A stretch of 64,000 nucleotides of DNA from contig JACRMN010000007.1 of assembly GCA_016214955.1 (NCBI GenBank), forward strand, positions 205,284-269,283. The letters run 5' to 3'. The DNA is from Deltaproteobacteria bacterium. Its GTDB lineage: Bacteria > Myxococcota > Myxococcia > Myxococcales > Anaeromyxobacteraceae. Position 1 is the stretch's first letter. Every line of letters begins with the position of its first letter. Below, in pieces: positions 1 to 9,125 of this stretch. The position numbers were made by a program, and so were the translations under genes. Under the pieces are notes generated by a model, which searched no databases, had not been told where the DNA came from, and was given only the letters and a program-made list of their open reading frames with translations.

Positions 1-165
1 GCGGTGGCCGGCGGCGGCCTCACCGTCATCGCCAACGCTCCCAACCCGGCCGGCCAGGCGCTCCTGGCGCGCCACTTCCCGGGTGGCGTCTCTCCGGGCG
101 GCCTGTTCCTGGGCGCGCTCTTGCCCACCGCGGTGGCCGCGGCCGCCTACCTCATCCTCCCCTGA
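1..165 (+). CDS. C-terminal end of a putative Na+/H+ antiporter (partial)
   Basis: The window opens inside a reading frame that ends at a TGA at 163-165, leaving 54 residues. They carry a Gly-rich stretch followed by VIANAPNPAG and a final hydrophobic segment ending LILP. This pattern recalls the C-terminus of the putative Na+/H+ antiporter family (PF07399-like), integral membrane proteins whose last helices hold a conserved Asn/Pro loop. The 5' part lies outside the window, so length, start and operon cannot be judged. The assignment rests on motif recall only; another multi-pass transporter is possible. Confidence 0.5.
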   Translation, partial: AVAGGGLTVIANAPNPAGQALLARHFPGGVSPGGLFLGALLPTAVAAAAYLILP

Positions 166-290
166 AATCGTCCGGCGCGACGGCCACTTGCCGGGCGGGG
201 GCCGGGGAGCCACCCGCGCCCCATCGGGGCGGGCGAACCAGATGGCCCCTGGCGCGCTCTCACACCCTAGAACCCCGTGGAGGGATCGCC

Positions 291-764
291 ATGCCCAGCC
301 CCACCCGCCTCGCCGCTGCCGCGCTCGCCCTGGCACTCGCCGCCCCGCTCGCCGCCCGGGCCGGCGGGAAGGAGGTCGCGCTGCCCCGAGACTTCCGGAC
401 CTGGACCCACGTGCGCTCCATGGTGGTCACCGACCCGGACGAGGGCATGTACGGCTTCCACAACGTCTACGCCAACAAGGCGGCGCTCAGGACCCTGCGC
501 GGCCAGGCCAGGAGCTACGCCGACGGCGCCGTGTTCGTGGTCTCGATCTTCGAGGTGAAGCAGGAGAAGGGGCAGGTGGTCGCCGGCGCCAAGCAGCGCG
601 ACGTGGTCCAGGTGAAGGACGCGAGCGCCACGGAGACGGGCGGCTGGCGCTTCGCCTCCTTCGATCCCTCGGGCAAGCGCACCGCGGTGGACGTCTCCAC
701 CTGCGCCGCCTGCCACGCCCAGGCGAGCGGCGGCGACCACGTCTTCACCCGCTTCGCCGAGTAG
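291..764 (+). CDS. Cytochrome P460 family protein
   Basis: A 157-residue exported haem protein. Residues 1-24 form a Sec signal peptide ending ARA. The mature part has the aromatic/Thr-rich beta fold typical of cytochrome P460 (FRTWTHVRSM near the start, GFHNVYAN in the middle). One c-type haem motif, CAACH, lies at residues 138-142 near the C-terminus, as in P460 and cytochrome c'-beta proteins. Family members oxidise hydroxylamine or bind NO in the periplasm; the lysine cross-link that separates the two activities cannot be judged from sequence alone. The start is the ATG after a GAGGGATCGCC leader. A DUF6132-type membrane protein follows 27 nt downstream and is probably co-transcribed. Confidence 0.85.
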   Translation: MPSPTRLAAAALALALAAPLAARAGGKEVALPRDFRTWTHVRSMVVTDPDEGMYGFHNVYANKAALRTLRGQARSYADGAVFVVSIFEVKQEKGQVVAGAKQRDVVQVKDASATETGGWRFASFDPSGKRTAVDVSTCAACHAQASGGDHVFTRFAE

Positions 765-791
765 CGGCCCCGCGCCGCTGGAGCACAGCCC

Positions 792-1076
792 ATGTCCGAG
801 CAGACCGCCACCGCCGGGACGCCGCCCGCGCCCGCGCCCGCCGGCGCCTTCCAGCGTTTCTGGCGCTCCCGCGCCCGCGCCCTCGCGGCCGCGGCCCTGG
901 GCGCGGCGGCCGGAGCGGCCTACGCCCACTTCATCGGCTGCCGCACCGGCACCTGCCCGCTCACCTCCAACGTGTGGACCGCCGGCCTGTACGGTGCCTT
1001 CGTGGGTGGGATCGCCGGCTGGCCGAGCCGGGTCGCCGCGGCGCCGCGCCGGGCCGCCGAGGGCTGGGAGCCGTAG
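792..1076 (+). CDS. Small membrane protein, DUF6132-like
   Basis: A 94-residue protein with two predicted membrane segments (about residues 27-46 and 60-78). Between them is the signature GCRTGTCPLTSN, a Cys-x4-Cys element characteristic of the DUF6132 family, small inner-membrane proteins of unknown function often found near thiol or sulfur-transfer genes. The first 25 residues are Pro/Ala-rich and probably disordered. It lies 27 nt behind the cytochrome P460 gene. No function is assigned; the two cysteines could hold metal or take part in disulfide exchange, which is inference. Confidence 0.7.
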   Translation: MSEQTATAGTPPAPAPAGAFQRFWRSRARALAAAALGAAAGAAYAHFIGCRTGTCPLTSNVWTAGLYGAFVGGIAGWPSRVAAAPRRAAEGWEP

Positions 1077-1133
1077 GACTCCGGGCGCGGGAGCAGGCAG
1101 GGTCCACCGTCTGTGAACGCAGGGCCCGGTCCC

Positions 1134-1151
1134 CCGCGCCCCGAGGCGCGG
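1134..1151. terminator. Hairpin between convergent genes
   Basis: A 7-bp perfect stem (CCGCGCC / GGCGCGG) with a CCGA loop lies in the 260-nt gap between the DUF6132 gene (+) and the Cys protein gene (-). There is no T-tract, so it is only a possible bidirectional terminator. Nothing else is recognised in this gap. Confidence 0.35.
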
Positions 1152-1336
1152 TAAGGGCGTTCGGTCGATGCCCGCTGCTCCCACGGACCGACGCAATGCC
1201 GGCGCCGCGCGATGAAGCGTCCCTGGCCGAGAGGCGCGCGGCGCGTTGCATTGCTCGGGGTCTGCGGAGGGAACCGGTCGCAGGTCCCTGCCGTGAAGAC
1301 CCGGCGCGGAGCGCCTGGCGCACTGCTTCCGGTGCT

Positions 1337-1504
1337 CTACGCGGCCAGCTGCTTCTTCAGCTTGGTCTGCAGCTTCTTGGCCGCGTCGCAGTCCTCGCAC
1401 TTGGCCGAGGCCTTCTTGGCGTGCACCTGGCACGTCTCCAGGCAGTTGCCCAGCGACTGGACCAGCATCCGCAGCTCCTTGGCCGACAGCTTCACCTCGG
1501 TCAT
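1337..1504 (-). CDS. 55-residue Cys-containing protein of unknown function
   Basis: A small acidic/lysine-rich protein, likely helical, with four cysteines as C21-x3-C25 and C36-x2-C39, then a lysine-rich C-terminus. The start is the ATG at 1504, chosen because an AGGAGGAGAA ribosome-binding site ends about 3 nt before it; the upstream in-frame extension has no such site and no family-like sequence. It lies about 126 nt downstream of thioredoxin reductase on the same strand, so it may be the last gene of the thiol cluster. The CxxxC/CxxC spacing could bind a metal or be a dithiol substrate. No family is recognised. Confidence 0.6.
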   Translation of the reverse strand: MTEVKLSAKELRMLVQSLGNCLETCQVHAKKASAKCEDCDAAKKLQTKLKKQLAA

Positions 1505-1630
1505 CGGTTCTCCTCCTCGAAGGGACTGCGTCGGGTGGCGACGGTCGAAGTATCGACCCCGGGGTCCGGGGCCGTCACCAGGTTTCCGGGGTTCAGTGTG
1601 CCGCACCCGCGCGCACCGGGCGGGTGCGGA

Positions 1631-2575
1631 TCACCGGGCCGCCACCGGCTTGTGGTCCTTCACGTACTTCTGGGCGGCCAGCGCCGCGATGGTGCCGTCG
1701 GCCACCGCGGTGGTGATCTGGCGGAACTTCTTCTGGCGCAGGTCGCCGGCCACGTAGAGCCCCGGCACCTGCGTGGACATGTCCTCCTGCGTCTCCACGT
1801 AGCCCCAGGGGTTGAGCGGCAGGAGCCCCTTCACCAGGTCGGCGCGGGGGACGTAGCCGATGAACACGAAGACGCCGTCGGTCGCGAGCTCGGTGACCTC
1901 CTTGGTCTTCACGTTCTCGATCTTGAGCTTGTCCAGCCCCTTCTCGCCCAGGAACTCCCGCGGCTCCGAGTCCCAGATCACCTTGATCTTGGGGTGGTGC
2001 AGCGCCTCCTCGGCGATGGCCGCCTCGGCCTGGAAGTGGTCGAACTGGTGGATGATGGTGACGCTGCGGGCGAACTGGGTGAGGAAGAGCGACTCCTCCA
2101 CCGCCGAGTTGCCGCCGCCCACCACGTGGATGTCCTTGCCCTCGAAGTAGGCGCCGTCGCAGGTGGCGCAGTAGCTGATGCCGCGCCCCTTGAAGCGGGA
2201 CTCGCCCGCCACGCCCAGGTCGCGAGGCTTCGCGCCGGTGGCGACGATGACCGCCGGGGCCTCGACCTCCTCCTCCTCGTCGAGCTCGAAGCGCTTCACG
2301 GGACCCGAGAGATCGTGCTTGGTGATCTCCACCGCCCGCCGCACCTTGGCGCCGAAGCGCTCCGCCTGGGCGGAGAAGGCCTTGGCCAGGTCGGTGCCCT
2401 TCACGTCCTCGGGGAAGCCGGGATAGTTGGAGACCTTGTGGGTTGTCTTCACCTGTCCACCGGGGACGCTCTCGTCGAGCACCAGCGTCTTCAGGCGGGC
2501 CCGGGATGCGTAGATGGCTGCCGTGAGGCCGGCCGGTCCGGCGCCCACCACGATCACGTCGTACTTCTCTGCCAT
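1631..2575 (-). CDS. trxB: Thioredoxin-disulfide reductase
   Basis: A 314-residue flavoprotein of normal length for low-Mr thioredoxin reductase. It has an N-terminal FAD dinucleotide fold (GAGPAGLTAAI, residues 11-21), the redox-active CATC at 136-139 within SYCATCDG, an NADPH-binding VGGGNSAVEE element just after it, and a C-terminal FAD-binding GLYVAGDL motif. It moves electrons from NADPH to the thioredoxin disulfide in the cytoplasm. The start ATG at 2575 has an AGGAG site 8 nt upstream. It sits 23 nt downstream of a CPPC thioredoxin gene, its likely partner. Confidence 0.95.
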   Translation of the reverse strand: MAEKYDVIVVGAGPAGLTAAIYASRARLKTLVLDESVPGGQVKTTHKVSNYPGFPEDVKGTDLAKAFSAQAERFGAKVRRAVEITKHDLSGPVKRFELDEEEEVEAPAVIVATGAKPRDLGVAGESRFKGRGISYCATCDGAYFEGKDIHVVGGGNSAVEESLFLTQFARSVTIIHQFDHFQAEAAIAEEALHHPKIKVIWDSEPREFLGEKGLDKLKIENVKTKEVTELATDGVFVFIGYVPRADLVKGLLPLNPWGYVETQEDMSTQVPGLYVAGDLRQKKFRQITTAVADGTIAALAAQKYVKDHKPVAAR

Positions 2576-2598
2576 GGCGTTCTCCTGGCGGCGGGGCG

Positions 2599-2934
2599 CT
2601 AGCCCAGCATCGCCTCGACCTGGGCCTTGATGGCGGTGCGCTTGATGTCCTCGCCGCCGAGCCGCTCCCCCACCTCCTGCCCGTTCTTGAAGAAGACGAG
2701 GGTGGGGCTCCCGGTCACGCCCAGCTTGCTGGCGAGGTCGCGGTTGCCCTGGCGGAAGATCTTGAGGAATGTGGCCTTGCCGGCGAACTGCTCGGCGACC
2801 GCCTCGTACTTGGGGGCGAGGGCCTCGCAGGGCGGGCACTCGGTGGAGAAGAAGTCGAGGACCACCGGCCCGGCGGCCTGGGCCACCTCCCGCTCGTATT
2901 CGGCGCCGGTGATCTCCTTCACGTGCTGGCTCAT
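2599..2934 (-). CDS. Thioredoxin with atypical CPPC active site
   Basis: A 111-residue single-domain thioredoxin fold with the active site C33-P-P-C36 (within STECPPCEAL) instead of the classical CGPC, and a cis-proline loop TGSPTLVFF near residues 76-84. No signal peptide is seen, so it is cytoplasmic. The start ATG at 2934 follows CCAGGAGACCCGATC, a good ribosome-binding site; the N-terminal extension upstream lacks homology. A CPPC site is expected to shift the redox potential relative to CGPC. It lies between the 33-residue Cys peptide gene and trxB, so it may service that peptide or the neighbouring enzymes. Confidence 0.9.
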   Translation of the reverse strand: MSQHVKEITGAEYEREVAQAAGPVVLDFFSTECPPCEALAPKYEAVAEQFAGKATFLKIFRQGNRDLASKLGVTGSPTLVFFKNGQEVGERLGGEDIKRTAIKAQVEAMLG

Positions 2935-3048
2935 GATCGGGTCTCCTGGAGCGCCGTTGGCTCGCGCTCGTCTCGTCCCGTGGGAGCCAGCATCGTGCGG
3001 GAGGAGTCGCGCACCGTGCCGCGGCGCCGCGCCGCGCGACCCCATAGA

Positions 3049-3076
3049 CGGAGGGCCGCCTCGCGGCGGCCCTCCG
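3049..3076 (-). terminator. Strong hairpin between the Cys-peptide gene and thioredoxin gene
   Basis: A perfect 12-bp inverted repeat (CGGAGGGCCGCC / GGCGGCCCTCCG) around a 4-nt TCGC loop, 23 nt after the stop of the 33-residue peptide gene. No U-tract follows on either strand. It may end or stabilise the peptide transcript so that the peptide is made in excess over thioredoxin, a common arrangement for small-peptide genes ahead of enzymes. Confidence 0.55.
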
Positions 3077-3099
3077 GATACCTCTTCGACCAGCGGGAG

Positions 3100-3201
3100 C
3101 TAGTCGTGGCAGCCCGACACCAGCCGGGAGGCCTTGGCGCAGCACTGCGCGACCTTCTCGGCCGTGCAGCAGGACGCCTTGGGCTTCGTGAGCAGCTTCA
3201 T
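3100..3201 (-). CDS. 33-residue Cys-rich peptide (candidate modified or metal-binding peptide)
   Basis: A very short gene with a near-ideal ribosome-binding site (AGAGGAGGAAGC just before the ATG at 3201). The peptide has a basic N-terminus (KLLTKPK), two vicinal Cys pairs at 11-12 and 20-21, a single Cys at 31, and a GCHD end: CC-x7-CC-x9-C. The stop is a TAG at 3100-3102. It is divergent from an ArsM-like methyltransferase and a radical SAM/SPASM enzyme and is followed by thioredoxin and thioredoxin reductase. Vicinal cysteines are classical As(III)/soft-metal ligands and also substrates for peptide-modifying enzymes. Either role is inference; no known precursor family is recognised. Confidence 0.6.
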   Translation of the reverse strand: MKLLTKPKASCCTAEKVAQCCAKASRLVSGCHD

Positions 3202-3263
3202 GCTTCCTCCTCTCGGGCTCGGCTTCTCCGCCCGAGCATCCCATGGGAGCCTCGGGGGAGGGC

Positions 3264-3291
3264 GAGGATTCCTGGCGCGCGGCGAATCCTC
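3264..3291. promoter_or_regulatory. Inverted repeat in the divergent promoter
   Basis: GAGGATTC and GAATCCTC form perfect 8-bp arms separated by 12 nt, midway in the 123-nt gap between the Cys-peptide gene (-) and the methyltransferase gene (+). Its position suits an operator controlling both directions. No regulator gene is adjacent. An RNA hairpin in the methyltransferase leader is the alternative. Confidence 0.4.
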
Positions 3292-3324
3292 CGTTCGCCG
3301 CCTGGCTCTCCCTGGAGGAGACCA

Positions 3325-3978
3325 ATGTCCCGTCGTGACGACACTTTTCGCGGTCGCGTGGCAGGCGCCACCCAGGCCCGCTACGACGGCCTCTCCACCG
3401 CCGGGTCGAGCCTCTCCTGCGGCGGCGCCCTCGACGACGCTGCCCCGCTGCCGGGCGAGACGGTGGTGGACCTGGGCTGCGGCCGCGGCGGCGACGTGGT
3501 GAAGGCCGCCGGGCGGGTGGGCCCCTCGGGCGCGGCGGTGGGCGTGGACGCGAGCCCCTCGATGCTGGCCGTCGCCCGCGAGCGGGCCGCCGGACATCCG
3601 CAGGCCCGCTTCGTCGAGAGCGACCTCGCCGCAGTGGCGCTACCCGACGGGCTCGCCGACGTGGTGGTCTCCAACTGCGCCATCAACCACGCGCCCGACA
3701 AGGCCGCCGTCTACCGCGAGATCCACCGGTTGCTGCGGCCGGGCGGCCGCTTCGCGGTCTCCGACGTGGTGTCGGAGGCGGAGCTTCCCGCCGCCGTGCG
3801 CGAGGACCCCGCCGCCTGGGCCGCCTGCTACGGCGGCTCCATCCCCGAGGCCGAGTACCTGGCCGCCATCGCCGCCGCCGGCTTCGCCGAGGTGGCCGTG
3901 CGGCGCCGCACCGAGCCCTACGAGAAGGGCGGCGTCCTCGTCCGCAGCATCACCGTGGAGGGGCGCCGCGCGCCCTGA
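3325..3978 (+). CDS. ArsM-like SAM-dependent methyltransferase
   Basis: A 217-residue class I methyltransferase. The SAM-binding motif DLGCGRGGD is at residues 49-57 and the acidic motif GVDAS at 73-77. Three cysteines sit where arsenite methyltransferases have theirs: C32 (SLSCGG), C118 (VSNCAINHAPDK, closely matching the ArsM motif) and C168 (WAACYGGSIPEAEY). This supports As(III) or another thiol-bound soft-metal substrate. At 217 residues it is shorter than many ArsM proteins and lacks their C-terminal extension. A strong GGAGGAG site precedes the ATG. The radical SAM gene starts 16 nt downstream. The enzyme may instead methylate the neighbouring Cys peptide or a radical SAM product. Confidence 0.8.
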   Translation: MSRRDDTFRGRVAGATQARYDGLSTAGSSLSCGGALDDAAPLPGETVVDLGCGRGGDVVKAAGRVGPSGAAVGVDASPSMLAVARERAAGHPQARFVESDLAAVALPDGLADVVVSNCAINHAPDKAAVYREIHRLLRPGGRFAVSDVVSEAELPAAVREDPAAWAACYGGSIPEAEYLAAIAAAGFAEVAVRRRTEPYEKGGVLVRSITVEGRRAP

Positions 3979-3994
3979 ACCCTCCGGAGCCGCC

Positions 3995-5347
3995 ATGAAG
4001 CTCTCGCGCCACGCCATCCTCGCCCCCGTCTCCGGCCGCCCGGAGGTCCTGCTGGTGCAGCCGCTCTCCGGCCAGGCGGCGCTGCTCGAGCCCGGCCACG
4101 CCGAGGCGCTGCGGGCGCTGACCGGCGGCGGCGCGCTGCCCGCCGGCCTGCCCGAGGAGACGCTGCGTCAGGCCGGCTTCGTGGTGGACGGCGAGGTCGA
4201 CGACGACCGGCTCCTGGCCGGCGCCCGCGCCGAGTGGAAGGAGGAGGCCTCGAAGACGCCCACCCAGCTGGTGGTGGTGCCCACCTTCGGCTGCAACCTG
4301 GCCTGCAGCTACTGCTACCAGGAGCTCTTCGACCCCACCGCCCAGGGGCTCATGGCCCCCGAGGTCATCGACGCCTTCTACGCCTGGGTGGAGCGCCACC
4401 ACGGCGGCGACTCGCCCCGCCCCTACGTCACCCTCTTCGGCGGCGAGCCGCTGCGCGACACCCCCGCCCACCGCGACCGCATCCTCCGCTTCCTCGCCGG
4501 CGCCCGCCGGCTGCGGCTGCAGGTGGCGGCGGTGACCAACGGCAACGACCTGGCCGCGCTGGTGCCGCTCCTCGCCGAGGGGCCGGTGAAGGAGATCCAG
4601 GTCACCCTCGACGGCCCGCAGGCGCTGCACGACCGGCGCCGCCCTCACAAGGGCGGCGCCGGCACCTTCGCCCGCATCGTCGAGGGCGTCGATGCCCTGG
4701 TGGCCGCGAAGATCCCGGTCAACCTGCGGGTGGTGGCCGACCGCGAGAACCTCGACGCCCTCCCGGAGCTGGCGGAGTTCGCCGCGGCCCGGGGCTGGCT
4801 CGATCTCCCCTCCTCCCGCTTCAAGACGCAGGTCGGGCGCAACTACGAGCTCTTCGGCTGCGCCAGCCGCCAGGAGAAGGGCGCGCTCTTCGACCGGGTG
4901 GAGCTCTGGGCCCGCTACGTGGAGCTCTCCGAGGCTCACCCCATCCTGCGCCGCTTCCACCAGCCCCGCTTCCACGGCATGGGCCACCTGGCCGACACCG
5001 GCGAGCTCCCCGCCCCCAACTTCGACGCCTGCCCGGCCGCCAAGAAGGAGTGGGCCTTCGGGCCCGACGGCAGCGTCTACGGCTGCACCGCCACCGTGGG
5101 CCACCCGGCCCACCGGCTGGGCCGCTTCCACCCCGAGCTGGTCCGCGACGAGGAGGCCATCGCCCGCTGGCAGGGGCGCAGCACCCTCTCGGTGGAGGCC
5201 TGCCGGGGCTGCTCGCTCGCCCCGGTGTGCGGCGGCGGCTGCGGCGCCATCGCCTGGAGCCAGAAGGGCAGCGTGCTGGCCCCCGACTGCCGGCCGGTGC
5301 CGGAGCTCTACGGCCTGGGGGCCCGCTACTACGGCCTCGGGGCCTGA
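3995..5347 (+). CDS. Radical SAM/SPASM domain protein, candidate peptide maturase
   Basis: A 450-residue protein. Residues 1-90 form an N-terminal region that could be a recognition domain. The radical SAM core opens with C100-x3-C104-x2-C107 (FGCNLACSYCYQE) and has the SAM-binding FGGEP motif near residue 152. A SPASM domain fills about residues 340-435, with the cysteine pattern CPAAKK, YGCTATVG, then CRGCSLAPVCGGGCG and a final DC, enough to hold two auxiliary Fe-S clusters. SPASM enzymes mostly modify ribosomal peptides or act as anaerobic sulfatase-type maturases. Tight linkage to a methyltransferase and to a divergent Cys peptide gene suggests that peptide as substrate; this is inference. 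Confidence 0.85.
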   Translation: MKLSRHAILAPVSGRPEVLLVQPLSGQAALLEPGHAEALRALTGGGALPAGLPEETLRQAGFVVDGEVDDDRLLAGARAEWKEEASKTPTQLVVVPTFGCNLACSYCYQELFDPTAQGLMAPEVIDAFYAWVERHHGGDSPRPYVTLFGGEPLRDTPAHRDRILRFLAGARRLRLQVAAVTNGNDLAALVPLLAEGPVKEIQVTLDGPQALHDRRRPHKGGAGTFARIVEGVDALVAAKIPVNLRVVADRENLDALPELAEFAAARGWLDLPSSRFKTQVGRNYELFGCASRQEKGALFDRVELWARYVELSEAHPILRRFHQPRFHGMGHLADTGELPAPNFDACPAAKKEWAFGPDGSVYGCTATVGHPAHRLGRFHPELVRDEEAIARWQGRSTLSVEACRGCSLAPVCGGGCGAIAWSQKGSVLAPDCRPVPELYGLGARYYGLGA

Positions 5348-5466
5348 TCCCGGAGCGCGGGCAGCGCGCCTGCGGCCTCCTCTCCTGGAGGGCCGCGGCG
5401 CCGCCGCGCCCCCGGCGAACCGACGGGACCCGCGCCGGCTCCCGGGGACCGCTGCGGCAGCCGCCG

Positions 5467-5928
5467 CTACCGGTGACCGCGGCCGTGGCCGGCCCACACC
5501 GGCACGCCCTGCAGGTCCCGCAGCGCCAGCGCCTGGTCGCCCTTCTTCACCACCTGGGCGATGAGCGCCGGCTTGCCGTCGAAGGTGATCTGCGATCCGG
5601 TGATCTCCACCTGGTCGCCGGCGGCGAGCGCCAGCTTCTGCTCCTCGAGGAACCAGGACGGGCCCACGTGCACCGGCAGCAGGCCGGAGGCGGTCTGCAC
5701 CTGCAGGCGGACGCCGCGGCCGCGCCGGCCGGCCTGCTCCACGGCGGTCACCTGGCCGGTGACGGTGGCGACGGTCCCGGTGTCGTAGAGCCGGGCGCCG
5801 CGGGCCCGAGGCCCGCGCCCCTCGCGGCAGGGGCCCGCGCCGGGGCCGCCCGGAGCGTCGGTGGCGATGGCAGCGAAGGGAGTGACGAGGAGGCCGGCCG
5901 CGAGGGCCAGCCCGAGGGTGCGGTTCAT
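5467..5928 (-). CDS. Secreted OB-fold-like protein
   Basis: A 153-residue exported protein. Its signal peptide spans about residues 1-22 (MNRTLGLALAAGLLVTPFAA). The mature part has a short Gly/Arg/Pro-rich linker, then a beta-rich domain with TVTGQVTAVEQ, VQTASGLLPVHVGPSWFL, GDQVEITGS and PALIAQVVKKGD, the alternating strands of an OB fold such as those in periplasmic BOF-like proteins. It ends in a His/Gly/Arg tail. The ATG at 5928 is preferred over one 6 nt upstream because it has proper spacing (6 nt) from AGGAG. Convergent with the radical SAM gene. A ligand cannot be named. Confidence 0.65.
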   Translation of the reverse strand: MNRTLGLALAAGLLVTPFAAIATDAPGGPGAGPCREGRGPRARGARLYDTGTVATVTGQVTAVEQAGRRGRGVRLQVQTASGLLPVHVGPSWFLEEQKLALAAGDQVEITGSQITFDGKPALIAQVVKKGDQALALRDLQGVPVWAGHGRGHR

Positions 5929-6032
5929 GGGCATCTCCTGGGGTTGGGGCGCCGCTCCGCGCGGCGCGTCTCCCCGAGGACACCCGGGCGCGGAGAAGGT
6001 TGCGTGCGGTGCGGCGACGCCGGGCGCGCGGA

Positions 6033-6872
6033 CTACGGCTCGGGCAGGTGGCGCTCGCCCGGTCCCTCGTAGCGGTAGGGGATGGCGCGGGGCATGGGCC
6101 CCTTGTTCCGCTCGCCGGTGCCGCTCTGCTCCCAGGCGTGCGCCAGGATGCCGACGCCGCGGGCCAGGCAGAAGAGGCCGCGCGCCAGCGGGGGTGCGAA
6201 GCCCAGCTCGCCGTAGACCACAGCGGTGGCCCCGTCGATGTTGAGCGGGATGTGGCGCCCCTTGCGACGCTCCAGCGCCGCCTCGCAGGCGCGCGCCACC
6301 TCGGCGAGCCGGCCGGAGACCAGCCCTGCCGCTCGCGCCTCCTCCACCAGCGCCAGCAGCCGGCCCGAGCGCGGGTCCACCGGGTGGAAGCGGTGGCCGT
6401 AGCCCGGCAGGTGCTCCTCGCCCTCGCGGGCCGCCACACCGATGGCGCCGGTGACCGCCTCGTCGAGCCCCTGGCCGGTGGCGCGGAGCGCCTCGATGCG
6501 TAGGAAGAGCTCCAGCGCCTGCTGGCCGGCGCCGCCGTGGACGTCTCCGAGGGCGTTGATCGCCGAGGCCATGGCGCCGTTGAGCGGCAGGCCGCAGGAG
6601 ACGGCGCTGCGGGCGATGGCGATGGCCGGGGCCTGCGGGCCGTGGTCCACCGAGGCCACCAGCGCTGCCTCGAGCAGCCGGGCCCGCCGCGGATCGGGCA
6701 GCTCCCCGCGCAGGAGCAGCCACAGCACCTCGGCGAAGCCGGCCCGGCCGATGAGCTCCTCGATGGGGTAGCCGCGCAGCCCGATGTGGCCGGGCCGGAT
6801 CTCGGTGATCGAGGTGCGCCAGTAGCGGGCTGCTTCCTCGAGGAGCGCGGCGGCGTCGGGGGCTTCGCTCAT
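6033..6872 (-). CDS. Citrate synthase-fold protein, citryl-CoA lyase-like
   Basis: A 279-residue protein, much shorter than citrate synthase (about 430), with the core of the citrate synthase fold. It keeps VHGGAGQQALE (H112, substrate-binding His region) and LPGYGHRFHPVDPR (H160/H163, matching the second active-site His). This short form is usually annotated as citryl-CoA lyase or citrate synthase-like and occurs beside CoA-transferases. Its start codon overlaps the end of the CaiB/BaiF gene by 4 nt (ATGA), so the two are translationally coupled and probably act in sequence on a CoA thioester. The physiological acid is unknown. Confidence 0.75.
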   Translation of the reverse strand: MSEAPDAAALLEEAARYWRTSITEIRPGHIGLRGYPIEELIGRAGFAEVLWLLLRGELPDPRRARLLEAALVASVDHGPQAPAIAIARSAVSCGLPLNGAMASAINALGDVHGGAGQQALELFLRIEALRATGQGLDEAVTGAIGVAAREGEEHLPGYGHRFHPVDPRSGRLLALVEEARAAGLVSGRLAEVARACEAALERRKGRHIPLNIDGATAVVYGELGFAPPLARGLFCLARGVGILAHAWEQSGTGERNKGPMPRAIPYRYEGPGERHLPEP

Positions 6873-8098
6873 GGCTTCCCTTTCCGGGCCGGATCGGGGC
6901 GCGGGGCGGCCACCACCCCCCGCCTCGCCAGCCCGTCGATCTCCCCCTCGGTCCAGCCCAGCTCCAGCAGCGTCTCGCGGGTGTGCATGCCCAGCACCGG
7001 CGGCGGCACCGGGTCCGGAAAGGGCTCACCCAGCAGGAAGCCGGGCCGGGTGATGCGGGCCTTCCCACCGCCCGGGACCTCCACCTCCTCGACGAAGCGG
7101 CGGCCGGCGACCTGGGGCTTCTGCAGGATGGCGTCCACCCCCAGCACCTGGCCGGCGGGCACCCCGTGGCGCGTGAAGAGCTCCTCCCACTCGGCCGCCG
7201 AGCGGGTGGCCAGCTTCTCGCACAGCACCTTGCGCAGCGCCTCGCGATGCAGGAGCCGCACCCGCCGGTCGGCGAACCGCGAGTCGTGCTTCAGCTCCGG
7301 CAGGCCGGTGAGGTCGCAGAGGGTCTCGAACTGCTTCTGCTCGTTGGCCGAGATGTTGAGGACGCCGCTGCCGGTGGGGAAGGTGCCCGAGGGCACGGCG
7401 GTGACGTTGTCGTTGCCCATGGGAGCGGGCGCCACGCCGGTGTTGAGGAAGTTGCCCACCACCCAGCCCATGGCCGCCAGGCTGGCCTCCAGCAGGGAGA
7501 CGTCGATGTAGCGCCCGCGGCCGCTGGCCCGCTGGTCGAGCAGCGCGGCGGTGATGGCGAAGGCGGCGGTCATCCCGCCGAGCGTGTCGCACACCGGGAA
7601 GCCCACGCGCAGCGGCGCCGAGGCCGGATCGCCGGTGACGGCCATCATCCCCGAGAGCCCCTGCACGATCTGGTCGTAGGCCGGGCGGTGGGCCCAGGGG
7701 CCGGTCTGGCCGAAGCCGGAGATGGCGCAGTACACCAGCCGGGGGTTGCGCCGCGCCAGCAGCGGGTAGTCGAGCCCCAGGCGCGCCATCACGCCGGGCC
7801 GGAAGTTCTCCACCAGCACGTCGGCCCGCTCCACCAGCTTGAGGAAGATCTCCTTCCCCTCGCGCTGCTTCAGGTCCACCGCCACCGAGCGCTTGCCCGA
7901 GTTGGCGGCCAGGAAGGAGAGGCCCATCTGCCGCCCGGCCAGGGCGGCGTCGGCCCCCAGCTCGCGGGCCAGGTCGCCACCGTCGGGGTTCTCGATCTTG
8001 GTCACCCGCGCGCCGAGCCGCGCCAGCTGGTAGGCGCAGAAGGGCCCGGCCAGCACGTTGGTGAGGTCGAGCACCCGCACGTCGTGCAACGGCATCAT
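6869..8098 (-). CDS. CaiB/BaiF family (type III) CoA-transferase
   Basis: A 409-residue class III CoA-transferase of normal length. The N-terminal motif VLDLTNVLAGPFCAYQLARLGA, followed by KIENPDGGD, identifies the family. The catalytic Asp is expected in GRYIDVSLLEA (about residue 185), and NSGKRSVAVDLK and VENFRPGVMARLGL are also typical. It transfers CoA between carboxylic acids such as formate/oxalate, succinate or carnitine. The immediate downstream partner is a citryl-CoA-lyase-like gene, so a citrate-like or malyl-type acid may be the substrate; this is inference. Two adjacent ATGs (8095 and 8098) are possible starts. Confidence 0.88.
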   Translation of the reverse strand: MMPLHDVRVLDLTNVLAGPFCAYQLARLGARVTKIENPDGGDLARELGADAALAGRQMGLSFLAANSGKRSVAVDLKQREGKEIFLKLVERADVLVENFRPGVMARLGLDYPLLARRNPRLVYCAISGFGQTGPWAHRPAYDQIVQGLSGMMAVTGDPASAPLRVGFPVCDTLGGMTAAFAITAALLDQRASGRGRYIDVSLLEASLAAMGWVVGNFLNTGVAPAPMGNDNVTAVPSGTFPTGSGVLNISANEQKQFETLCDLTGLPELKHDSRFADRRVRLLHREALRKVLCEKLATRSAAEWEELFTRHGVPAGQVLGVDAILQKPQVAGRRFVEEVEVPGGGKARITRPGFLLGEPFPDPVPPPVLGMHTRETLLELGWTEGEIDGLARRGVVAAPRPDPARKGKP

Positions 8099-8202
8099 CG
8101 CCGGCGCTCCCCGGCAGGGCCCGGCTCGGCTCGGCAGGGTGGCATGGATCGACGATGGAGCCGGACCCTGGGCCCGGCGTCAAGCCCGAACCACCTCGCG
8201 GG

Positions 8203-8343
8203 TCAGCGGCCCTGGTCGGAGCGCCACACCAGCCGGGTGATGCGGCCCACCATGCGCCGGCGCCGGTACCGGTGCCAGAGGCGGCGGGCCCAGTGGCCGA
8301 CGGCGACGGCGGCGCGGACCAGGAGCGAGGGCCGGGCGTTCAC
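8203..8343 (-). CDS. 46-residue basic protein of unknown function
   Basis: A short Arg/Trp-rich ORF starting at a GTG at 8343 that overlaps the stop of the upstream small ORF by 4 nt (GTGA), the usual coupling pattern in this genome. The sequence has a hydrophobic patch (LLVRAAVAVGHWARRLW) then RYRRRRMVGRITRLVW, suggesting an amphipathic, membrane- or nucleic-acid-binding peptide. No family recognised. Support is mainly the overlap geometry. Confidence 0.35.
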   Translation of the reverse strand: MNARPSLLVRAAVAVGHWARRLWHRYRRRRMVGRITRLVWRSDQGR

Positions 8344-8558
8344 GGGCCCACCCCGGGCCCGGTGTCCCGGAGGTCGGCGTCCCGCTCCAGCTCGTCGGCG
8401 CAGGCGATGAGGGCGCTCGACATGGCGCCGCGACGCCAGCGGTTCCACCAGCGCGCGCCGTCCATCAGTTCGTGGGCGGCGAGCCGCGCCACGCACGAGG
8501 CCACGCGCGTGGCGGACTGCTCACCGGCGTTGAAGCTGGCAGCGTCGTAGCGGACCAC
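8340..8558 (-). CDS. 72-residue protein of unknown function
   Basis: A small ORF starting at a GTG at 8558 with a weak GGAAGG element about 10 nt upstream. The middle is helical with two cysteines (SCVARLAAHEL and LIACADELERD) and a basic WWNRWRRG patch. Its stop overlaps the start of the next small ORF by 4 nt. No family recognised; coding potential rests on length, amino-acid balance and coupling. Confidence 0.4.
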   Translation of the reverse strand: MVRYDAASFNAGEQSATRVASCVARLAAHELMDGARWWNRWRRGAMSSALIACADELERDADLRDTGPGVGP

Positions 8559-8912
8559 GGGGCACCATCCTTCCCGAGGCGGAGCCGCGGCAGGCGCGCC
8601 GGATCGATGCAGGATTCATAGCGCGGCGAGGGGCCGGCTGCGCGCCTCGTGGGACCCGGAAGGTGTGGAAGCCGCCCGCGCCGCGCCGGAGGCCGGGCAC
8701 GAACCGTGCCGCCCCGGGCAATCGGCTGCCCTTGCTTGCCTATTCGGACCCCCGCCTCGCGGAGCCGGCCGCGGCCCGCGCGGGGAGACATTGCCGCAGG
8801 CAGGCGCTGCGCACCGCGCTGCCGGAAACGGGCCGCTGGCGGGGGCCCCGTTCAGCCCAGGCGCGGTGCCTCCGTTGCTGTCATGATGTTCACTTCGGGA
8901 AAAGGAGCAGCC
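8559..8912. other. Intergenic region, 354 nt
   Basis: This divergent gap should hold promoters for the small ORFs on both sides. It is slightly less GC-rich at 8590-8630 and 8725-8750 (CTTGCTTGCCTATTCGG). No clear operator, RNA gene or repeat is recognised. Confidence 0.4.
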
Positions 8913-9125
8913 ATGGCCAAGATCGACAGGGAGGCGCGGCGCGAACTCATCTCGCAGGCGGCAGATCGCCAGCAGCGGCGGCGCCCTCCGGTCCCCCCTC
9001 GCCGGCCCGCCGTCACCTGCCCGGACTGCACGTCCCTGTTCGAGGAGGGCGACTCACGCCGCTCCGCCGGCCAGCGCGCCGGGGACGCCGCCGAATACAG
9101 GGCCCCGGGCGCCCCGCTCCCCTAG
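8913..9125 (+). CDS. 70-residue hypothetical protein with CPDC motif
   Basis: Starts at an ATG with AGGAG 5 nt upstream. The N-terminus is basic and helical (MAKIDREARRELISQAADRQ), followed by an Arg/Pro linker, a CPDC pair within TCPDCTSLFEEGD, and a disordered C-terminus. The single CxxC could be half of a zinc site formed by a dimer. No family recognised. It sits just upstream of another small ORF on the same strand. Confidence 0.5.
   Translation: MAKIDREARRELISQAADRQQRRRPPVPPRRPAVTCPDCTSLFEEGDSRRSAGQRAGDAAEYRAPGAPLP

Follow-up and report, generated by a model that had tools for sequence, protein, structure and literature searches.

The radical S-adenosylmethionine (SAM) enzyme CteB makes thioether bonds. 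SCIFF (six cysteines in forty-five residues) peptides are short, Cys-rich and broadly conserved, and therefore unlikely to be antibiotics, as stated in PMC8326336, which also deals with PqqE. The first predictions of mycofactocin and of the SCIFF peptides likewise started from a very small gene that hardly varies and is linked to a SPASM enzyme (PMC7470986). The same pattern was found in a 64,000-nt stretch of DNA, hereafter the window, from a Deltaproteobacteria bacterium (Anaeromyxobacteraceae; GCA_016214955.1, JACRMN010000007.1, positions 205,284–269,283, forward strand). Here, a gene for a 33-residue cysteine peptide is accompanied by genes for a radical-SAM/SPASM enzyme and, in addition to the earlier pattern, for a redox relay and an arsenic-type methyltransferase, and the set occurs in three phyla. 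We consider it probable (roughly 60%) that these genes constitute an apparently undescribed system of the ribosomally synthesized and post-translationally modified peptide (RiPP) type, which makes an intracellular thiol compound from a radical-SAM-modified peptide. No description of this gene set was found in listings of the open-access PMC literature or in passages of PMC10352776, PMC8326336, PMC6950371, PMC7470986 and PMC13188914; subscription papers and preprints were outside the scope of this search.

The genes are arranged in two divergent groups. On the minus strand lie the genes for the peptide (33 amino acids (aa), 3100–3201), a 111-aa thioredoxin with a CPPC active site (2599–2934), the thioredoxin reductase TrxB (1631–2575) and a 55-aa four-cysteine protein with the spacing CxxxC-x10-CxxC (1337–1504). 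On the plus strand, the gene for a 217-aa ArsM-like methyltransferase (3325–3978) is separated by 16 nt from that for the 450-aa radical-SAM/SPASM enzyme (3995–5347), the predicted peptide maturase. An original prediction, made from the sequence of the window, had described the peptide, the divergent methyltransferase with three ArsM-type cysteines, the closely following SPASM radical-SAM gene and the thioredoxin and trxB genes downstream of the peptide, all of which were present. Its gene set was incomplete, as the 55-aa protein, encoded outside the interval that it covered, also belongs to the locus as an accessory member.

The window peptide, MKLLTKPKASCCTAEKVAQCCAKASRLVSGCHD, has five cysteines in 33 residues, spaced as CC-x7-CC-x9-C. 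The near-perfect ribosome-binding site attributed to it is an AGGAGG directly 5′ of the ATG, and ribosome-binding sites also precede most peptide copies in Myxococcota and Bacillota. In the 73 loci with the peptide, its last 16 residues (in the window AQCCAKASRLVSGCHD, codons 3103–3150, −) read A-[Q71/L2]-C-C-[A57/S16]-K-x-[S72/A1]-x-x-x-x-G-C-H-[D71/N2], with the number of loci given after each alternative residue. The core residues A, C, C, K, G, C and H were invariant in 73/73 loci, the core cysteines being C20, C21 and C31. The leader was variable and Lys-rich (MK-x-L-[T/I/V]-K-K type). Since it lacked cysteine in 19 of these loci (including L153, whose start is uncertain), the first CC of the originally proposed motif falls outside the conserved part and is dispensable. 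What the aligned sequences retain is CC-x9-C and, at the C-terminal end, H-D. The window peptide matched no Pfam family, and neither it nor two relatives matched an NCBIfam family.

The window is high in G+C and has numerous overlapping open reading frames (ORFs), which might make the peptide frame a chance ORF. We give this explanation practically no credence, as it is refuted by the conservation across phyla, the ribosome-binding sites and the codon-position pattern. The 16 core codons of the window and 15 relatives had 2, 1 and 11 variable sites at codon positions 1, 2 and 3, and pairwise codon differences were 415 synonymous vs 95 nonsynonymous, counts that represent non-independent events because the 16 sequences are related. 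Judged by its sequence, the 33-residue peptide is thus a real, selected gene.

The original prediction had proposed that conservation of the peptide together with the radical-SAM gene in relatives would support it, and this was what we found. Among 24 genomes of the family, a radical-SAM orthologue was present in 17 including the genome of the window, and those of the 16 relatives were 64–86% identical. At E below 1e-9, the peptide occurred in 16 genomes, again including that of the window; all 16 are among these 17, and the 7 genomes that lack the enzyme had no peptide at this threshold. The opposite outcome, a peptide that is not conserved where the enzymes are, was looked for and did not occur. 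The one family genome with the enzyme and without the peptide was G017, in which the contig ends about 480 bp past the radical-SAM gene. In G016, of the same genus, the peptide lies about 2.3 kb past that gene; in G014 and G015 it lies upstream of thioredoxin, a place where G017 has none. Gene order was shuffled between genera of the family, and the members remained together.

In a scan of public genomes, 200 pattern matches led to 179 confirmed stretches, of which the best 80 loci were kept. To judge by the record titles, the radical-SAM enzyme was found in Myxococcota, Bacillota (Carboxydothermus, Thermoanaerobacterium, Desulfosporosinus) and Bacteroidota (Paludibacter and others), and these 80 loci contained the peptide in 73 cases, the methyltransferase in 72, TrxB in 71 and thioredoxin in 69. 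Five of the seven genomes without a local peptide hold it elsewhere, and in the other two (L085/G214 and L133/G208) a contig end lies near the radical-SAM gene. Outside Myxococcota, 53/58 loci had the three genes in a single orientation and in the order methyltransferase–peptide–radical SAM.

The association was close to one-to-one when whole genomes were counted. In three sets totalling 475 genomes, the radical-SAM enzyme was found in 65, the peptide in 65 and both in 64; some of the counted genomes are included in the search alignments and match by construction, so what carries information is how seldom a genome is discordant. In Myxococcota (195 genomes), the enzyme (E ≤ 1e-150) was present in 24, the peptide in 23 and both in 23, and in six further genomes, which lack the peptide, the radical-SAM match was weaker (1e-61 to 1e-76). 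The order of G195 (198 genomes drawn from a larger group) gave 24, 25 and 24, respectively, and the class of G198 (82 genomes; radical SAM at E ≤ 2.1e-89) 17, 17 and 17. When all radical-SAM matches at E ≤ 1e-60 were admitted, 64 of 72 genomes had the peptide. Besides G017, described above, two genomes stood out. Genome G251 encodes the peptide alone, without the radical-SAM enzyme or an orthologous methyltransferase. In genome G416 the peptide is absent and the radical-SAM match (3e-63) is a fragment; at its locus (L163:6588-7526, +), the methyltransferase was matched in three frames and the radical-SAM protein only from about residue 279, which indicates that the cassette has decayed and the peptide has gone.

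A few peptide copies occupied other positions. G014 holds two different copies (L066:7265-7363, +, and L079:201-296, +), one upstream of thioredoxin and the other beside the 55-aa four-cysteine protein. Desulfosporosinus has a second copy distant from the cassette (L162:7821-7937, −), with neighbours that we take to be nadA, nadB and nadC of NAD biosynthesis and a gene for a NifU-like protein. The orphan gene of G251 (L161:8299-8394, −), a genome without a radical-SAM match at 1e-60, adjoins what are presumably a peroxiredoxin-like gene and a Fur-type regulator gene.

The window radical-SAM protein matched PF04055 (59.7 bits, cut-off 29.5) and the SPASM family TIGR04085 (47 bits, cut-off 27). 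Eleven of its cysteines were invariant across 39 rows of the alignment, among them C100, C104 and C107 of the CxxxCxxC motif. The canonical seven-cysteine SPASM motif consists of Cx9-15Gx4C, Cx2Cx5Cx3C and a final C, and was recovered with invariant cysteines as C346-x12-G359-x4-C364, C403-x2-C406-x5-C412-x3-C416 and C432. Residues 1–66 were modelled as three strands followed by helices, resembling a peptide-recognition (RiPP recognition element, RRE) domain at the N-terminus. The model aligns with CteB from residue 4; since the structure listing barely covers residues 1–84, we regard the RRE-like domain as a candidate for leader binding and do not claim it as proven.

The SCIFF (CteA–CteB) ranthipeptide system (TIGR03974) resembles the present one in its radical-SAM enzyme, with a two-cluster SPASM region and an N-terminal RRE-like domain (here a candidate from the model), as well as in its short, broadly conserved, Cys-rich peptide. 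It differs in that SCIFF peptides have six cysteines in 45 residues, whereas three invariant core cysteines are found here, and in that the present set includes an ArsM-like methyltransferase and a thioredoxin relay and occurs in three phyla. The window enzyme scored 61.9 bits against the SCIFF maturase model (cut-off 425). The best NCBIfam matches were peptide-linked radical-SAM/SPASM enzymes (TIGR04463, CefB, Clo7bot and geopeptide), but the window enzyme and three relatives from other phyla scored far below the cut-offs: TIGR04463 gave 131.4 (relatives 121–160) vs 525 bits, CefB (NF038107) 129.3 (relatives 129–163) vs 600 and the geopeptide maturase TIGR04280 116.6 vs 400 for the window enzyme. 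Among the best 25 families per protein, for the window protein and its relatives, no known maturase family lay above its cut-off. Other origins were also rejected. The best of the viral matches listed had 27% identity over part of the radical-SAM protein, a plasmid scan gave no match for the radical-SAM orthologues, and PADLOC, applied to four proteins in search of a defence system, yielded no more than a mad2 methyltransferase and a weak resemblance to viperin.

The methyltransferase matched PF13847, and its closest solved structure was CmArsM. The two share the fold and the three As(III)-binding cysteines: C32, C118 and C168 were invariant in 33/33 rows and align with C72, C174 and C224 of CmArsM. 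Unlike CmArsM, however, the present enzyme is only 217 aa long, lacks the C-terminal region beyond CmArsM residue 281 and has an invariant His122 in place of Leu, and no recurrent arsenic genes were seen around it. Its score against the ArsM model NF008823 was 176 (cut-off 263), and two relatives scored 213.8 and 195.2.

The thioredoxin matched PF00085 (79.3 bits, cut-off 23.5), while its score for the equivalog TIGR01068 was 68.4 against 96.8; TrxB exceeded the TIGR01292 cut-off (359.8 vs 343.45 bits). Both genes were co-located with the set in relatives. They were separate neighbours in 16/22 Myxococcota loci and a single frame in 53/58 loci outside this phylum, with the fusion domains displayed in two. 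The 55-aa protein, without a Pfam or NCBIfam family above cut-off, was matched in 13/20 fetched loci (13/16 relatives) and in 19/80 public loci. As a candidate for the true substrate it was rejected in favour of the 33-residue peptide, since it was found in only these 19 of the 80 loci.

Because nearly every genome examined that has one of the two genes also has the other, the peptide is likely the precursor on which the radical-SAM enzyme acts. The assignment of the two as predicted precursor and maturase is well supported by the comparisons and the modelled fold. The original interpretation, a peptide that is the substrate of the enzyme either as a RiPP or as an arsenic- or selenium-binding thiol, was thus partly borne out: the near one-to-one co-occurrence, the closeness of the genes in three phyla and the modelled enzyme fold strongly support a RiPP-type substrate, and the arsenic- or selenium-binding thiol is left as a less likely alternative. 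In the mechanism that we propose, the Lys-rich leader would bind to the N-terminal RRE-like domain, and the radical-SAM enzyme would link at least one of C20, C21 and C31 with a residue nearby; the likeliest bond is a thioether, as made by CteB. The ArsM-like enzyme may then methylate a core thiol, or an atom held by the thiols, and a relay from NADPH via thioredoxin reductase to thioredoxin may maintain the other thiols in the reduced state or regenerate the peptide once it is oxidised. From fold, adjacency and fusion we infer the thioether bond, the action of the methyltransferase on the peptide and the service of the relay to the product.

A core that hardly varies, and neighbour families among which no exporter was seen to recur, point to an intracellular function as a cofactor-like molecule or redox shuttle and not to an antibiotic. 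Together with the thiol-redox surroundings, they led us to favour an intracellular, cofactor-like thiol compound. Mycofactocin and pyrroloquinoline quinone (PQQ) are similar in outline, with conserved precursor residues, a SPASM enzyme and an intracellular product. In contrast to these, no cleaving peptidase or quinone-type partner was seen here, and the system has a thiol-rich core and a dedicated thioredoxin reductase. A more far-reaching proposal, which we put forward tentatively and think rather doubtful, is a ribosomally encoded thiol cofactor that replaces glutathione- or bacillithiol-type thiols in at least three phyla for one dedicated task, with its own thioredoxin reductase relay (mostly fused outside Myxococcota) and a methyltransferase descended from ArsM and retuned to the peptide. 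If the peptide pathway is real, some genes resembling those for arsenite methyltransferases or generic radical-SAM proteins would belong to it. The Myxococcota and Bacillota carriers include named cultured strains, so its chemistry and role are directly testable.

The neighbourhood bears on the alternatives. Recurrent neighbours in the 80 loci (tblastn, E ≤ 1e-5) were DUF6132 (27), rhodanese (24), DUF1847 (23), DUF302 (16) and DUF5714 (13); another clustering of the neighbour genes gave partly different counts. Families were also assigned to 149 of 183 ORFs of at least 100 aa from 26 non-Myxococcota loci, a set that leaves out core genes, a near-duplicate locus and the longest ORFs. It contained 17 thioredoxins, 10 DUF302, 10 IS1595-type zinc-ribbon, 8 DUF1847 and 5 rhodanese proteins. 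Fusions joined the methyltransferase to the radical-SAM enzyme (P0100), the radical-SAM enzyme to DUF5714 (L125 and 56 among the 120 matches listed, counted by length) and DUF1847 to rhodanese (L122).

The intact cysteine triad of the methyltransferase keeps an arsenic reading open. Metalloid methylation, in which the three core cysteines of the peptide bind As(III) (or Sb or Se), the short ArsM-like enzyme methylates it, thioredoxin gives the electrons and the radical-SAM enzyme shapes the peptide ligand, nevertheless appears unlikely to us. Arsenic families were not recurrent: ArsR-type HTH_5 was found in 2/149 neighbour ORFs, no arsenic transporter was among the 25 commonest of 121 families, and ArsP, for which no systematic search was made, was noticed in a single locus. 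The missing C-terminal region, the low ArsM score and the histidine in place of Leu also speak against it, as does a second, more distant ArsM-like gene elsewhere in G195, G209 and G210 (E 1e-53 to 1e-57).

The peptide might instead be an unmodified or only methylated carrier of metal or sulfane sulfur, with the radical-SAM enzyme acting on another substrate of the pathway. The nearby rhodanese, DUF302 and DUF1847 genes, the frequent second four-cysteine protein and the two peptide copies away from the enzyme (Desulfosporosinus L162 and the G251 orphan) would fit such a carrier. We consider it improbable, as the near one-to-one co-occurrence, the modelled RRE-like N-terminal domain and the CteB-like fold point to the peptide as the substrate. 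Still less probable, to the point of being very hard to credit, is a secreted bacteriocin or signal from a sactipeptide or ranthipeptide cluster. The enzyme class is common in such clusters, including the nearest NCBIfam families, but the core hardly varies over three phyla, and neither peptidase exporters nor immunity genes recurred among the neighbour families seen.

An ArsP-type permease gene, with what is presumably an ArsR-like regulator gene, lies upstream of one Bacillota cassette (L125:4841-5869, −) and was the sole arsenic-type context noticed, without a systematic ArsP search. A perfect 12-bp inverted repeat with a 4-nt loop (3049–3076, −) between the peptide and thioredoxin genes of the window is a possible processing or termination hairpin, judging by its letters. 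It was not among the sites listed by a terminator scan of 3050–5460; the single terminator-like site reported lies within the radical-SAM gene, on the opposite strand. A promoter scan of the same interval found no promoter-like site with the sigma-70 consensus, which may not suit this organism, and an RNA element was rejected, as an Rfam scan of positions 1–9000 gave no match at the gathering threshold. IS1595-type transposase zinc-ribbon ORFs stand just upstream of many Bacteroidota cassettes (e.g. L117:6543-6968, −; a cluster of 21 loci). In the window, a loosely associated neighbour gene encodes a DUF6132 protein (792–1076, +; PF19628), a family found in 8/20 fetched loci. The window also has a gene for a cytochrome P460-family protein with CxxCH (291–764, +; PF16694), which is also found near the cassette in L080.
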